From: Entrophospora sp. SA101
Lineage: Eukaryota; Glomeromycota; Glomeromycetes; Entrophosporales; Entrophosporaceae
DNA: 17,453 nt
Assembly (NCBI GenBank): GCA_958430865.1
Contig: CAUDNR010001219.1
Span: forward strand, 1 to 17,453
Direction of reading: 5' to 3'
The stretch's first letter is position 1. Each line of letters starts with the position of its first letter. A model generated the notes under the pieces. It made no database searches, was not told where the DNA came from, and saw only the letters and a program-made list of their open reading frames with translations. The position numbers and the translations under genes are program-made. Below are positions 5,098-13,000 of this stretch, one piece after another.

Positions 5098-5441
5098 CCA
5101 ACAATGTGTGGAAAAATTCATTGGTAAAGGTAGTCAATTTTTTATTAACTTGCTATTATTTCATTTATTGTTTGCTTTTTAAGTTGTCTTTTCTCATTTT
5201 GATTATTAATAATGGTAAGCCAATTTAAATCTAGGCCATAATTATTTTTTCATGGGGAAGTTGTCCAAATTTTCAATTTTTCTTCACAACAACCATATCT
5301 TTTAAATCATTTACCTAAAAATATTCCATTGATTCATCCAAGTTTAATTCCATTCATATAATTTCTTTCAATTTTAAAACAATTATAAAAAACTACAAAG
5401 TGAACATAAAATTATAAAATTATTTATATATATAGGGATAA
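5098..5441. other. Spacer between kinase relic and the TGA=Trp block
   Basis: No gene is seen. The left border of the foreign-looking block must lie here or just upstream, but no duplication or inverted end marks it. The last 30 bases are a TATATA tract ending in TATAG before GGATAAGTGTATATG. Confidence 0.4.
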
Positions 5442-5447
5442 GTGTAT

Positions 5448-7201
5448 ATGAAAAGTAATAAATATAATGGTTCTAATGAATACCAAAAAGCCATTGATTT
5501 TTTAGAAAAAGGATGTGATTGTGATTGTTTTTCCAGAATTCCCAAGGAACAATTTGCAGAATTAAGAGAATCCTTTCAAGCTCTTTCTAAAACAGAACAA
5601 GACATATTTTTAATGGCTCAACTTAAGGCAATGGATGGTGGATCAATAAGCACTAGTAGACGCCTTAAAAAGAAAACTAGATCTAATAAAAGAACTTTCT
5701 ATCATTGGGATCACAATACACTTCTTTGTCAAGAAACTTACCTCAATATGTTGGGGATTGGCAGGACTTATTTTGAAAATATCAGAAATCATCTGATAAA
5801 TAATGGTCTTCTACCAAGAGTTCATGGTAATATTAAAAGAATGCCTCAATGGAAAACAAAGATGATGATTGATAAAAATGTTGCTGAGGTAGTAAAGAAT
5901 TTTCTGGAAAATTATGCTGAAGTTCATGGATTACCAAGTCCAGGAAGAAGTATCAATAGAATAACCCAATCAATTACATTCTTACCAGCTGAAATGGGTT
6001 ATAAATCTGTGTACAGGGATTTTCTAGCTGGTCTAGAAGAAGATAGTAATTTGAAATCTTTGAAATATGATGCTTTCAGAAAATTATGACATCAATTGAC
6101 ACCAGAAATTCAAATTATGAGTCCAAGGACTGACTTGTGTGATACTTGTCAACATTTTAGAGATGGTTTACATTACAATGCTCGCCAAGAGGAAGAAGCT
6201 AAAGATTTACTCAAAAGATTTAAAGAGCATCTGTCCAAGTCAAGATTAGAAAGAAATTATTATAATAAAAACACCAAATTAGCAGAAGAACAAAGAAAAT
6301 TAGTTGATCAAAATTATTCAAAGGGTAAAACAAAATATTGCAGTATTGATGCTACTGCTCATTATAGTTATGATTGAGCCCAAAATGTTTATGTGCCCCA
6401 TTCAGATCAACAAGTAAGTAAAATATGTTACCTTAGTCCATGTAAAGTCCATTTGTTTGGTATTCAAGATGAAGCAGTAAGGGATCAAATTAATTATGTT
6501 CTTAATGAAGATGAAATTATAGGAAAAGGACCAAATGGCACACTTAGTATGATCTTTGATGGAATTAAGAAATTGAATAAAGGTGAAAAGCATTTAAAGA
6601 TTACTTGTGATAATGCTGGGGGACAAAATAAAAATAATGTAACAATTTGGTTTTACTTGTATTTAGTAATTTGTGGTTATTATGAAAGTATTGAATTAAA
6701 TTTTATGATTCCTGGACACACCAAATTCAAGTGTGATGGTAGTTTTGGTTTAATAAAAAAACTCTATAGGAAAATAAGAGTAGATTGTCTGGGTCATGTG
6801 GTTGAAGTGATAAAAAAGTCTAGTCCAGCAGGATTAAATAAAGCTCAATGTTATTAATGTGGAAAAGATTTTCAATACTTAGATATTAAAGCTATTTTGG
6901 AATTTATTTTAAGAAATTACCAGGTATGCAGAAATTTCAACATTTTCTTTTTGAAGCATCCAATTTTGGTACAGTGAAAGTTCAAGAAGTTGCTAATGGA
7001 CCTTTTACTGAATTCAATTTATTGAAAACCAAGGAAGCAGATATTTTGGAAGAAATTAGAGCTTTATCCATTTTAGTATTAACACCACCACCTTTGGATT
7101 ACAAAATGCAAGAATATATTTACCAGAATATTCGCCCATTTGTGAAAGATGAATACAAAGATATTACTTGCCTAAGACCAATCTATACTGGCAATGAATA
7201 A
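5448..7201 (+). pseudogene. DUF7869-like transposon-type protein, read with TGA=Trp, decayed
   Basis: Read from ATG 5448 (GTG 5442 is a possible alternative; AGGG lies 10 bases before the ATG), one frame covers about 584 residues. Under the standard code it breaks at TGA 6087-6089 and 6375-6377. Both read well as Trp (RKLWHQLTPE, SYDWAQNVYV), and related proteins as I recall them carry Trp or another aromatic residue there. True damage is a TAA at 6855-6857 and a one-base loss in a T run near 6895-6902, after which the frame resumes as YFKKLPGMQKFQHF to a TAA at 7199. Motifs: Cys-rich start (GCDCDCF), LCDTCQ, SIDATAHYSYD, CDNAGGQNKN (Asp about 388), and GHTKFKCDGSFGLIKK. These fit the eukaryotic DUF7869-type family, probably a transposase-like fold with acidic catalytic residues; the name is from memory. 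It is intronless and first in a co-directional set of three ORFs. Confidence 0.7.
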
Positions 7202-7391
7202 AATATTTAGAATAAAATCACCACTGATTTCTTACTGTCATTAAGTTTAATAAGTTTAATCTTTTGACAAATATTGTTAGCTTTTTCCACATTTAAAGTA
7301 GAAAAGTACTAAAATAATTATATACTTAACATACCCTAAGGATATATGTATATTAAAAGAATAAATAAAAAAAGGAACAATCAAGAAAATC

Positions 7392-8280
7392 ATGACAAAC
7401 ATCATAAATGAACAACAACAAGCAAACAAAACACTAATTAATGAAATTGAAGCATTGAAAAGGCAATTATCCAATAAAGAACAAGAAATTACTGAATTAA
7501 AAATCTAGGAGAAGTAAGTGAACAAGAAGAAGCTGAATTTAAGCAAGAAGCAATCAACCAAATTTACCAAATATTGGTAGATATGAAAAATAGATTTCCT
7601 CATTGTAGTAAAATATTGAACAAGATTTAAGGAAATTGATTAGCAAACCATTAAGAAATCAGTTTATGAATATTTGTTTTCAACATAGTCTTATGTATGA
7701 CTATAAATGGGAAGGCAAAGAAAACTTAGAAAAAATTGTTGAGAGAATTATTATAGATTATTTTGAAGACACTGAGTTAGCCACTGAATTGAAAAAAGAT
7801 TGGAAACTATGAAATCAAAGAACTCATATTTTTTCTCAAATAAAAGAAGGAGGTAATATTTGAGGCAAGCCTGCTAAGGATATAATTCTTAAAGATATTA
7901 TAGGAAGCAAGATTGAACGAATTATAGCAGTTGGTGAAAAGTGAAGTAAAGCTCAAGCAGAAGATTTTAAAGAAAAATCACTAATGCTACAAAAATCTGA
8001 TAAAATGCTTGAAGAGGAGGTAGCAAAAAATATAAAACTACAAGAGGAGTCAGAAGAGAAATCGAAAATGTTAGCAAGAAGTGGAGAAAGAGAAGAAGAA
8101 CTAAAAAGACAACTGTATTTAGAAAGAAAACCCTTGCCTGTTCTACCTAAAAAACGAAATACTTTACAAAAATTAGGCTCAAGAATTAAAACCAAACTCC
8201 AAAAACTTCAACAATTGGTAGAAAATAAAAAACATCAAGCCCGAGAATTTATTGCTCAAATAGAAGTAAAAGTTAACTAA
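7392..8280 (+). pseudogene. Coiled-coil protein of unknown function, read with TGA=Trp, frameshifted
   Basis: Three linked frames make one protein of about 296 residues. It starts MTNIINEQQQANKTL (ATG 7392). The frame shifts by one base in an A run near 7500 (TAG at 7506 otherwise) and again in an A run near 7610 (TAA at 7628 otherwise). From 7612 to the TAA at 8278-8280 the frame is open except for three TGA codons, at 7810, 7861 and 7942, read as Trp (DWKLWNQR, GNIWGKPA, GEKWSKAQ). TGG is also used (YKWEGKE, KDWKLW). The N-terminal 60 residues and residues 190-240 are Glu/Lys/Gln-rich heptad-like coiled coils. The middle (IIIDYFEDTELATELKKDW) looks globular. The C-terminus is basic (LPVLPKKRNTLQKLGSRIKT) and ends AQIEVKVN. 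No signal peptide or membrane segment is seen. AGGA at 7373 is too far upstream to be a convincing ribosome site. ORF 8296-8886 follows 15 bases later and shares the AQIEVK ending. Confidence 0.65.
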
Positions 8281-8295
8281 TTTACCTTATTTAAT

Positions 8296-8886
8296 ATGAG
8301 AGAATTGCTTTACACTATTTTAGAGTTAGAAGAATGACATAGCAGTAATTCTACTTGTGTTTTTTGTCCTAATTTAAAAAAAGCAGTTTGTCAAATCAGA
8401 ACCCGAAGCAAAGCAACTAGCAAATTTGTTGAAAGTGATAAGGCTTGTGAAAGTTGTAAAGACAAGTTCGAAAATGATGAATTACCTAAATGTAGTTGTG
8501 GAAGGTTAAAGACTAGATACATTTGTGATTGTAAAGAAAAGGGCAATGAAAAAGAACTTCCTCTTTTACCTAATCAAAATGGAGGAATGGCACTTTTCTA
8601 TGAAAAATAAATAAACTCTCTGCAAGAACAACTGACTGAAACCGAGGAAGCATTGGAAATTGAAAGGGAAGAAGTGGTTAAGTTTCAAGAAAAATCTGAG
8701 GAGTGAGGCAAATGACAAAAGCAAGAGTTATTAGAATGAATTAAGCAATTAGAAGAAGAGAATGTTAATCACAAAGAGGAAATCAAAAGATTAAAGGCTC
8801 AGCTAGAACAGTTAACTTCTCAACAAGTTGCTCAAATTGAAGTTAAAGAAACTAAAAAATGACCTTGATTGAAAATAAAAAATTAA
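8296..8886 (+). pseudogene. Cys-rich plus coiled-coil protein, read with TGA=Trp, one in-frame TAA
   Basis: From ATG 8296 one frame runs 196 codons to TAA 8884-8886. It holds six TGA codons (8335, 8704, 8713, 8737, 8860, 8866) and no TGG, so every Trp would be TGA. The only other stop is a TAA at 8608-8610, a simple C-to-T change from CAA (Gln) in a Gln/Glu-rich context. Residues 21-79 contain nine Cys in close pairs (CVFC, CESC, CSC, CDC), suggesting one or two zinc-binding modules. Residues about 105-180 form a Glu/Gln/Leu-rich coiled coil. The end is VAQIEVKETKKWPWLKIKN, with two TGA-encoded Trp. If the TAA is authentic, the gene would be a 104-residue Cys-rich protein and the coiled coil an untranslated remnant. 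The 15-base gap to the upstream ORF suggests a shared transcript in the donor. No homologue is recognised. Confidence 0.65.
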
Positions 8887-9171: not shown

Positions 9172-9446
9172 ATTAACTATTTTTATAGAGGTAATTCTAT
9201 ATATCACTTAAGATAACAAATGGGATATTATAAAACTGTTAATTATATAATCATGTTACAAATTTTTGAACCCTGAAATTCTTGGTAGTACCAATGTTCA
9301 CTTTGTCTGGTTTTAATGTAAATTAACTTCATATTAACTATTTTATCTAGGCAAATATTGTAAATCACATACACTGGTGATGTTAAACAAGCACTATTGA
9401 TCCCAATTCTTGGTAATACCAATGTTCACTTTTGTCTGGTTTTATT
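9129..9446. repeat. Three-copy direct repeat including the MKLIYI gene start
   Basis: Copies begin with AATTCTTGG at 9129, 9277 and 9405, spaced 148 and 128 bp. A 31-bp stretch starting TAATGTAAATTAACTTCATA is identical at 9153-9183 and 9314-9344. Copies 2 and 3 share about 40 bp nearly perfectly (9277-9316 and 9405-9445), including the palindrome TTGGTAnTACCAA. Copy 1 contains the start of the 8915-9171 gene. Confidence 0.75.
9243..9332 (-). pseudogene. Truncated paralogue of the MKLIYI gene
   Basis: ATG at 9332 gives MKLIYIKTRQSEHWYYQEF, then TAA after 29 residues. The first six residues and the upstream flank match the 8915-9171 gene exactly, so this appears to be a second, truncated copy. 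It could equally be a non-coding repeat that happens to be open. Confidence 0.35.
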
Positions 9447-9460
9447 GTAGCATGCCCCAT
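9383..9460 (-). pseudogene. Second truncated copy of the repeat, SEHWYYQE fragment
   Basis: The frame MGHATIKPDKSEHWYYQEL (ATG 9460) ends at TAA after 25 residues. SEHWYYQE is shared with 9243-9332, but the MKLIYI start is absent. It is a fragment only. Confidence 0.3.
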
Positions 9461-10030
9461 ATAAGCCAACAACTATACATCTTTTTCCTCAATATGTTTA
9501 TGATAATGTTTTAATACAATCAATGAAAGCATGTCTAAAAATTATGTAAAAATTAAAATTCTACAGTACTTTATTTTGTTAGCCTAAAGTAAACAAAGTT
9601 TTTGTTATTTCTAGGATATTGAGGTTATTAATCAAATCATAAATAATATAATTATTAGACAAACTTCCGGATCCATTAAATCGTATATATTCATCAACTC
9701 ATAAGTTGTTAAGAGATTGATTATATTAGACTAACTAATAAAAGAAAATTAATTTTGCAAATGAGTTGAGAAAAAAATTTCGCGCCTTTATTAATATTTG
9801 TTAAAAGCATATGTCAATTACATTTCATTGATAAAGACAACCAAAATTTATTCTACCCATGAATTTAATATATATATATATATACTGTATGTTCAAATGA
9901 GTAGAGTTGTTTAAGAGAAAAGAATAAAAATATTTACACAAATATATATATCTATTACTATATACGAAGATTGGAGATTATATGGACAAGTAAAAAGAAA
10001 AGGAAAATCAATAATTCCCACTTTAGAATT
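9461..10030. other. AT-rich spacer downstream of the Bye1-like gene
   Basis: No gene is seen. It contains an alternating TA tract at 9869-9884. The right border of the foreign-looking block should lie in this stretch, but no junction signature is visible. The 3' untranslated region and polyadenylation signals of the Bye1-like gene are expected near its right end. Confidence 0.45.
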
Positions 10031-13000
10031 TTAACATTTATATCTCTTAGATGATCGTTTTCTATCATAATGATCATAATGAGATTGATAACGATGTTGT
10101 CTTGATGATGATGATGATGATGATGACGACGACGACGATGATTGTCGGGGTTGATGTTCTTGATTATATTCCTGTCGATGTTCACGGCGATATTCTTTAT
10201 TATTATGATGATGTTGCTTTTGCTGTTTTTCTTGATAATGATGTTGCTGCTTTTCTCGATAATGTTGCTGTTGTAGTGAAGAACGTGGACCAAAATCTTG
10301 TATCGGTTGTGACGTAGTTTGAGAATAATATTGATCATATGAAGAATATGCAGGTGGAGATGGAATAGCTTGAAGCCCGGGTGAACCATGATGTGTTGGT
10401 ATAAACGAGTGTTGATTATTTTGTAGTGGTGATGGTTGTATAGCAGTTTGATATTGAGTTGGGTATTGAGTTGAATATTGTTGTGCTTGTGGCTGTGGTG
10501 ATGGTATAGAAATATGAGATTGATTAAAAGATATAGGAGAAGGTGCTGTATTATTGAATGGTGATAGTTGAGCATTATAATGGCCAGTCGTTGCTGACAA
10601 ATTTTGTGTTGGTAAGTTATGTTGTGCAATGTTTTGTATATTTGAATTTGCCAACAAGGTTTGAAAAAATTCAGAAAATTCTCCATTAGATGCTGAAATC
10701 ACTGGCAAATTATTTGTGTAGGAATGTTGTGATTTTTGAGAATTAGGTGGCTGTAATGATTGTGGAGTGGGATTAGTAGCATTTTGTTGTGATTTAATAA
10801 CAGTGTCGGTTTCAGGTTTTTCATTTTGTTTATTAGATCCAGAAATTGATTTAACAGGTTCATCATGATGTGATTTTTCTTTTTTATCTAGTCTATTGCC
10901 ACCTTTACTGCTGATATGATTTGCATTTGCATCACTTACATCACGTGGACGTTTTAATTTACCTGATTCAGCTTCAACTATCACTATTGCGCCTAACAAT
11001 AATTTAGAGTCACGTTTATTACCGTCAGTTTGCGGTATCAAGATCTCATCATATTCCAAAAATGTTACTACATCAGGTATTTTGTCTTCAGGTTCTATTG
11101 GTATAAGGTACAGTTCTCTAACAGTAGTGTATGTATTCGCCACACGACCATAACGAATATGCTTATCTTTTGGTGAGTAGCGTAGATAATTAAACATACT
11201 ATCAAATTGTTGTTTATCAAAGAAAGTATCATCCACTTCAAATTTAATAAAAACAACATCTTTTGATGGTGAACACCAACAATCAATCAAATATGTATCA
11301 GCCTGTTCGACGCGTGACACGTGTCCATTAACTCGAATAGAAGCAGCGAGATATTCATCCCAGTTTCGAACTTTATCAAGTTTCTTTGCTGCAACAAGAC
11401 TTGCCTGTCCTGAAAACCTTGCCACGCCATCATATAATAATCTTCCTTTCCAAACTGTGATTGGTTCGGTTATAGCATTGTTTTGTGGTTCTCCTGGTGG
11501 GGTTTTAGAAGGACTTCCAAAGGATGATGATACAGAAGATGATAAAGCTCCAGGTGAATATGGAGGCGAATCCATCACTTGTTGTGGTAAATTCATAATC
11601 GCGTTTGATACAATTGGCACTGTTTTTTTTTTAATATTTACATAATTGTCTGTTGCCTTTATTTCTTTATTATTATTACCATTATTGGAATTTGCAAGAG
11701 AAGTTTCCTTATCATAAATTACAGCGGCCTTTGTTTCCATATTTTCTGTAGACTTTAAAATTGATGTATCATCTTTTGATGAGTCATTATTATTAAAAGC
11801 AGCAAAATTATTAATGGCGATAGTGGGAGAAATAGTGATAGAAGTAGCAGTAGCAGGTGATACAATATCACTGCCTAAGCTTGTTTTTCTTTTGGGAATT
11901 AAATCTTCTATATTGATTTTTGGTCTAGTTGGACTAATACTAATAGAACTGGTGGATTTTAGTGTCGGTGTATTTTTATCTTGCTGTGGTGATGATGTTG
12001 ATGAGCTGTCATTTTTTGATGAATCTAAAAAGTCTCCAACAATAATGTATTCACCTTTATGAGTTTTTTTAATTCTAGGTCCCATATCTTCAGCTTTTAA
12101 AACAGATTGTTGCATGCTTTCCCTACGAACTTTTACCATTAATGATTTTTGTTCTGGATTAGCCAATTCTTCCGGGGTCATTTGTACCAATTTCACTATT
12201 GGGATATCACCCTTAACAACATTTGTCAACAATCGATCATTTTTTGGATGTCCTAAACTTGTATGAAGATTTCGAAATTTTGATTTATAAGGTTGACCTA
12301 ATGGTTCTTTATCATTTTTTGTAGCAAAAGCATCATGTATAGCTTCTTCAAGTTTTTGTGCAAGTCTTCCACCAAGTTGATCAATCGTGTCGTCAGATTT
12401 TGGTAAGTCATCTTTTTGATCCAAGTCTTTATATTTTTTAACAAATATTTCTTTAAATTTCAGAGTACATAAAGCTCTTAAATTGGAATCATATAAAGAA
12501 TTTGTTGGCTTTTTGGCTTGAATTTGTAATTTTTTAATTGAACCTTGACCGGACTTTTTAGCAATAGCAGTCTTAGCACCACCACTGCTGCTACCATTAT
12601 TATTATTAGTAGCAGAAACACCAGCAATACTTTGCACACCATTTACATTAGTTGACTGTAATTTACTACTACTAGTCACTAAATGTGATTTCATAGAAGC
12701 ATTTAAAACTTTATTTGTAGTAGTTTTAGAAGAAGGGGGGGGAGAAGAAAGAGTGAACTTTGAGTGTACCTGACTTGGTACTTTTTTTGATTCTTTTGTA
12801 ACAACAAAAGGTGATGATACAGGTTTTTGTGTCTGTGATTCAACTCCTTTAAATGTTTTACTATCTAAATTTTTACTTTGTAAATAACACACTTCACCAC
12901 CACAATATGAATTATTTTTCTGCGTAGAATTTGAACACTCCTTATTCAGACATTTGGTTTCCGAATTTAATGATTCCTAATTTAAAATTATTAATTTTAA

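Follow-up and report, generated by a model that had tools for sequence, protein, structure and literature searches.

A DNA-transposon family written with UGA as tryptophan in the genome assembly of the fungus Entrophospora sp. SA101

Where could three adjacent reading frames that use TGA as a sense codon be translated, when they lie beside a fungal gene? The window, meaning the whole stretch of 17,453 nucleotides analysed here, is the entire contig C1028 of the Entrophospora sp. SA101 assembly (G000; 101.3 Mb in 2,123 contigs). A sequence-only reading took positions 5448-8886 for a block of UGA=Trp genes probably transferred from a Mollicutes-related endobacterium and followed on the right by an intact fungal gene. 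The fungal gene is confirmed: a host gene with TFIIS-M and SPOC domains (BYE1-like) occupies 10031..12892 on the minus strand, matches an Entrophospora sp. SA101 protein with 100% identity along 91% of its length, and has TGG as its sole tryptophan codon. A recount of the three ORFs also returned the same totals of 11 in-frame TGA, 2 internal TAA and 0 TAG. We read the region differently, as a damaged member of a family of DNA transposons in which the transposase gene (ORF1) uses UGA for tryptophan, and not as a single transferred block.

The three frames were found as claimed, all on the plus strand, although ORF1 extends further, to 7201, and ORF2 is longer in a copy on contig C1574 (L040). 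ORF1, a DUF7869 DDE-transposase-like gene at 5442..7201, contains two TGA (6087-6089 and 6375-6377, at Trp 220 and Trp 316 of the C1574 copy) and three TGG before a TAA at 6855-6857; this TAA and a frameshift break the frame, after which the coding match runs on to 7201. In the C1574 copy, code 4 opens ORF1 throughout its 590 codons, four of them TGA, and an ORF2 of 296 codons comes after it. ORF2 of the window (7636..8280), a coiled-coil-like cargo gene as judged by eye and with no Pfam match, has three TGA (7810, 7861 and 7942), two TGG and a terminal TAA. Its in-frame match begins at codon 72 of the C1574 ORF2, and codons 1-40 of the latter match 7392-7511, a stretch containing a TAG, so the 5' part of ORF2 is frame-broken in the window. 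ORF3 with its continuation past an internal TAA at 8608-8610 (8296..8886, terminal TAA) has six TGA (8335, 8704, 8713, 8737, 8860 and 8866) and no TGG, and the earlier statement that all six tryptophans of this frame are TGA stands. No tRNA genes were found in the window.

The ORF1 protein matches PF25273 (DUF7869) with 50.7 bits against a Pfam cut-off of 26, and its predicted fold is that of RNase H-like DDE transposases. Three candidate catalytic aspartates (315, 394 and 436) are invariant in 18 aligned rows and, in the predicted structure, are placed at the ends of strands 306-316 and 386-393 and at the start of helix 435-447. ORF1 is thus predicted to encode a DDE-type transposase-like protein, with the catalytic triad as a candidate only. 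The catalytic domains of Mos1/mariner and retroviral integrases show low identity to it (8-17% among the matches listed), and they differ from it in that the N-terminal half of ORF1 is distinct and its activity is a prediction.

A search with ORF1 returned at least 94 matches in the same assembly (90 of 1,382 candidates scored), some of which are pieces of a single copy; this copy number rules out a unique transferred block, and 5448-8886 does not mark the bounds of a single insertion. Seventeen of the best 20 matches are interrupted by TGA only. ORF1 copies are dispersed over many contigs, and their left flanks differ. The cargo half has fewer copies than ORF1 among the matches listed, while for ORF2 at least 140 matches, differing in length and in identity, came from 132 scored candidates out of 225. 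Cargo homologues were also identified in metagenomes, and in an alignment of 11 ORF2 homologues tryptophan is present at the 'KLW' site in nine and at the 'GEKW' site in ten. No relatives were confirmed in searches of genome_contigs, viral contigs, plasmids and phages. Among the copy-bearing contigs, fungal signs were noted on C1028 (the host gene), on C1061, which combines a TGA copy with a DUF7869 copy of the standard-code type, and on C1452, where a TGA copy accompanies a synthetase in separate pieces, as if intron-split.

The meaning of TGA was assessed in 30 ORF1 copies, the window included, by frameshift-aware alignment to the C1574 frame (25 copies with 14,220 codons, and five more); these are mostly best matches, a choice that favours intact copies and overestimates intactness. 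Five tryptophan sites (93, 141, 220, 316 and 407) account for 147 codons, namely 90 TGA, 56 TGG and 1 TGT, with TGA in 29/29 copies at site 220 and in 30/30 at site 316, and all other sites together hold 3 TGA, 6 TAA, 0 TAG and 1 TGG. Although TGA was scored as tryptophan by the aligner, the Trp-site counts were the same when 25 copies were aligned simply as DNA. If new stops arise by single-base changes in the sense codons that this gene has, 20-25% of them are expected to be TGA, and the probability of at least 11 TGA among the 13 stops of the window is about 1e-5 to 8e-7, depending on the mutation model. The frameshift and the TAA of the window copy would suit ordinary decay of a fungal gene; against it stand the window by itself (P about 1e-5 or less) and the 90 of 93 TGA codons that fall on five sites in 30 copies. 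This pattern rules out random decay, as had been argued earlier from the TGA excess, and leaves the decay of a fungal gene with practically no probability.

The code 4 reading is also under selection. Of 25 copies, eight (two of them partial) are free of frameshifts and of stops outside the Trp sites. When ORF1 was read by code 4, mean pairwise dS was 0.399 and dN 0.053 (300 pairs). Parsimony reconstruction along a FastTree tree put N/S per site at 0.146 for the 23 internal branches and 0.187 for the 25 terminal ones; these figures carry the caveat that sequence is shared in mosaic fashion among the window, C964 and C1574. If neutral decay had an N/S of 1, about 5% of the change on terminal branches would be neutral. 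TGA and TGG were exchanged 15 times on the ORF1 tree. Nine standard-code DUF7869 copies of the same assembly have TGG only, 7 to 10 each, a result that is partly by construction since open frames were chosen. The standard-code nuclear relatives have a pairwise dN/dS of 0.30-0.33 at dS 0.28-0.48, although the two most similar pairs appear to evolve neutrally (0.74 and 2.1, on few changes). Such strong purifying selection on the UGA=Trp reading implies that the family evolved where UGA means tryptophan. We therefore regard it as very nearly certain that the ORF1 family is a repeat written and selected in a UGA=Trp code within a host that apparently does not use it. A multi-copy nuclear family of this kind is hard to accommodate in ordinary transposon biology: either bacterium and eukaryotic nucleus exchange mobile DNA repeatedly, or part of the fungal genome is translated with UGA as tryptophan.

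The ends of the element are short and variable. The left ends of ORF1 copies have in common solely a short inverted core, ACAAAGTGAACAT, about 50 bases upstream of the start codon; in the window this left-end core, CAAAGTGAACAT, lies at 5396..5407 on the plus strand and is inverted relative to the right end. The right-end region of the window (9217..9459, plus strand) contains two degenerate copies of the terminal motif at 9277-9314 and 9405-9459, the latter ending in GCATGCCCCA. Across 25 contexts of cargo copies, the right end ATGCCCCA is followed by unrelated DNA in 15, a near variant is present in seven, and it is absent from three; these right ends have the same core as the left end, inverted. 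A copy on C714 (L046) is cut at codon 419 and joined to this same right end. When up to three mismatches are allowed, the 35-base right-end motif occurs at 957 places in the assembly (reversed control, 0). These places were dropped as a copy number for the ORF1 family, since the same motif is carried by a short unit starting with AAATGGGATATT that also stands alone.

One such standalone unit lies directly behind a standard-code DUF7869 copy on C18. This arrangement, together with the abundance of standard-code relatives in the assembly, would suit a scenario in which a UGA=Trp organism donated the family in a few ancient events and standard-code DUF7869 transposases then spread it passively in the nucleus. 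Dead passengers should be neutral, however, and the terminal-branch N/S of 0.187 with intact Trp sites already disfavours this scenario, which we consider improbable.

Which compartment, then, reads UGA as tryptophan? The assembly contains code 4 endobacteria. Four bacterial L2 genes are located on C1669, C1178, C390 and C893, and in-frame TGA occurs in ribosomal and other genes of C1669 and C390, the two analysed in more detail; in addition, synthetase or ABC genes interrupted by TGA only are found on C792, C1138, C1734, C624, C1611, C293, C2013, C2074 and C1204. The endobacterial set comprises 13 contigs with at least about 0.73 Mb (from lengths or highest coordinates), and contigs with ABC genes lacking TGA (C447, C976, C1379, C1402, C763 and C1334) were kept outside it. 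TGA makes up 62% of the Trp codons in ORF1, a share similar to the 69% in the endobacteria. The suggested comparison with Candidatus Moeniiplasma yielded a relative in Candidatus Moeniiplasma glomeromycotorum, P0032 (I3273_02745), with 54% identity over 55% of ORF1; it is 54-58% identical to family members over the catalytic half, and, at 329 aa, it differs in lacking about 250 N-terminal residues of ORF1. P0032, P0028 and P0030 fall outside a 33-row standard-code group in a tree whose base is without resolution, and the TGA copies cluster with metagenome proteins. Tryptophan at the five sites is not absolute among relatives: P0016 has Ser and P0030 has Leu at 316, and P0014 has Glu at 141. 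Fungal mitochondria commonly read UGA as tryptophan as well, and the nuclear copies might accordingly be mitochondrial strays. Given a named homologue in a mollicute metagenome-assembled genome (P0032), we consider this origin very unlikely, and mollicute endobacteria are the likeliest compartment to decode UGA.

The proposal of a Mollicutes-related source thus has in its favour the Moeniiplasma homologue and the code 4 contigs of the same assembly, but other parts of the evidence do not fit it. None of the 13 endobacterial contigs is among the matches listed for ORF1, cargo or DUF7869, an absence that is weak evidence, as about 0.73 Mb of endobacterial sequence is set against roughly one listed copy per Mb of assembly. 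The CpG observed/expected ratio is 0.02-0.15 in nine ORF1 copies, 0.26 in the cargo, 0.63 in the host gene and 0.10-0.39 at eight standard-code DUF7869 loci, and is unlike that of the endobacteria (0.82-1.23 at four loci). There is no excess of mixed TG/CA columns in ORF1 copies (17 vs 21 GT/AC control columns), which indicates that CpG loss is old or ancestral and did not arise by recent decay copy by copy; the terminal branches show only a roughly twofold higher rate of transitions at CpG than at other C or G positions (0.078 vs 0.036; 12 changes). The long-term home of ORF1 was hence CpG-poor, being either an endobacterial lineage beyond those sampled or the nucleus. Codon usage was set aside as a donor test for its mixed signal. 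With CpG codons removed, ORF1 is nearest to the host gene (0.68), followed by standard-code relatives (0.79) and endobacteria (0.88), and the cargo is slightly nearer to endobacteria; the Ser and Ile codons of ORF1 and the Thr codons of the cargo are endobacteria-like, and the remaining residues are more fungus-like. On balance, a bacterial source of the family appears somewhat more likely than not.

The explanation that we favour, at a probability of roughly 0.55, is a DNA-transposon family whose UGA=Trp transposase is made in mollicute endobacteria and whose nuclear copies arrived or were moved repeatedly and then decayed. The ORF1 protein would be produced in Candidatus Moeniiplasma and its kin, where UGA is read as Trp. 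The fungal code would stop ORF1 at Trp 220, upstream of all three candidate aspartates, and nuclear copies should therefore be silent; they may arrive repeatedly from endobacterial lineages, or may be moved by the protein made in the bacterium, and would decay after arrival, with the coiled-coil-like genes carried along as cargo. A bolder version, in which nuclear copies pile up in the fungus with an unreadable transposase gene and the endosymbiont alone makes the enzyme, is a tentative idea to which we give distinctly less weight; if true, symbiont translation would drive insertions into host genomes across the mycorrhizal phylum. Several observations run against the endobacterial explanation. 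The 957 terminal motifs suggest mobilisation in the nucleus, no endobacterial contig is among the matches listed, CpG is low and was lost anciently, ORF1 codon usage without CpG codons leans towards the host gene, and the standard-code nuclear relatives likewise have long selected lineages; moreover, the sampling of best matches favours intact copies, and the Trp sites are not absolutely conserved.

Some of these observations would equally suit a family that lives in the fungal nucleus, with the fungus itself decoding UGA as tryptophan, for instance through stop-codon readthrough, a non-standard tRNA or some special state of expression. The CpG depletion resembles that of nuclear transposons, and the terminal motifs, the lack of an identified endobacterial contig among the matches listed and the long selected lineages of the standard-code nuclear relatives point in the same direction; tRNA-Trp reading UGA is described for some unicellular eukaryotes in the accessible part of PMC13092985. 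On the other hand, the host gene has TGG only, TGA seems to serve as the stop codon of one standard-code relative (L064), and the nine standard-code copies have TGG only, again partly by construction. With up to five TGA per ORF1 copy, weak readthrough would give almost no protein. A pattern search for tRNAs with a UCA anticodon gave 116 matches vs 97 in the control, which is at noise level. Decoding by the fungus is rather unlikely in our view.

The assembly calls for caution locally. Right of about position 7600 the window shares 99-100% identity with C1574, compared with about 90% to the left, and it has further identical stretches in common with C964. The fungal flank at 9460..10030 (571 bp) is 100% identical in C1028, C1574 and C1537, and in C1537 it adjoins a 91% version of the element tail. 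As three contigs join this flank to different element versions, the local junction in C1028 is ambiguous; some element of the ORF1 family abuts the flank in all three alike. Such mosaicism, the flank joined to three versions and the mixed nature of the assembly would be expected if the contigs were chimeras of endobacterial repeats and fungal DNA. Copies are found on many contigs with different flanks, however, and neither the presence of copies in both codes on C1061 nor the intron-like split synthetase with a TGA copy on C1452 fits chimeras, which we regard as a slim prospect.

Published work on exchange between fungi and Mollicutes-related endobacteria includes fungal genes moved into endobacteria (PMC10507103) and mixed fungus-endobacterium assemblies (PMC11423566), and the accessible parts of both papers describe neither a transposon nor DNA entering the nucleus of the fungus. 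PMC5982333 and PMC10386755 likewise deal with gene transfer and mixed assemblies, as far as their accessible text goes. No report of a UGA=Trp transposon in a fungal nucleus was found among titles and the beginnings of abstracts, with few subscription papers included.

Related fungi appear to contain the same family. From 99 homologues, 23 gene models of named fungi of the close clade were chosen; Racocetra P0067 was left out as too distant (45% identity, with Phe and Arg at 93 and 141 and with 220, 316 and 407 unaligned). Within the span of the 23 models, 48 of 77 Trp sites are skipped by gaps of at least eight residues, and 45 of the 58 gaps hold a Trp site; in 20,000 trials of gap rotation a mean of 18.6 sites was skipped, and in no trial as many as 48. 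None of 63 Trp sites is skipped in 17 control proteins, which are mostly intronless metagenome or bacterial gene calls and include only P0020, P0024 and P0034 as annotated Rhizophagus models. The gaps most likely reflect introns called over TGA, and the skipped sites of the other fungi would then be TGA codons; the ORF1 family may thus account for one kind of broken gene model in these fungi. The recurrence of one Trp-site pattern in independent assemblies of related genera is a further argument against chimeras. Skipped sites occur in models of Ambispora leptoticha, Geosiphon pyriformis, Diversispora eburnea and Gigaspora rosea, and in Glomus cerebriforme in one weakly aligned model with 20% coverage (P0092); a Funneliformis model spans one Trp site and keeps it. 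The PF25273 proteins of Rhizophagus irregularis and R. clarus (P0020, P0024 and P0034) have the same domain as ORF1 with 37-40% identity, and their gene models skip no Trp site. P0020 and P0024 share tryptophan at 220 and 316 with ORF1, but unlike ORF1 they have Phe, Asn and Phe at 93, 141 and 407.

Besides the elements themselves, the Entrophospora assembly (101.3 Mb) contains Mollicutes-type endobacterial contigs in which UGA encodes tryptophan, namely C1669, C1178, C390, C893 and nine more (among them loci L069-L072, L079 and L080). The presence of four different L2 genes suggests up to four endobacterial lineages in this assembly. Elsewhere in the assembly, C28, C1489 and C1972 carry three DUF7869 copies with equal scores, six TGA codons and no other stops; these copies share 48% identity with the protein of Candidatus Moeniiplasma glomeromycotorum (P0032) and possibly represent a second subfamily written with UGA as tryptophan.

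For the cargo, the coiled-coil-like proteins of the C1574 copy (L040:3460-4680) have at least 30 relatives (P0100-P0129), derived mainly from metagenomes, with one cluster comprising 93 member sequences, and no Pfam match above the cut-off was obtained for these cargo proteins. To the left of the window copy, the sequence-only reading had noticed a kinase tail; gene models from Geosiphon (P0063) and Funneliformis (P0096) join a protein kinase domain with pieces of the transposase.

On the right, positions 9217-9459 of the window hold a short repeat unit whose highly conserved 35-base right-end motif occurs at 957 places in the assembly, or approximately a thousand. This unit is also found on its own, as on C18, where it follows a DUF7869 copy of the standard-code type. 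The adjoining host-gene flank (9460-10030) is 100% identical in C1028 (the window), C1574 and C1537 and is joined to a different element version in each, pointing to duplicated or mis-joined contigs.
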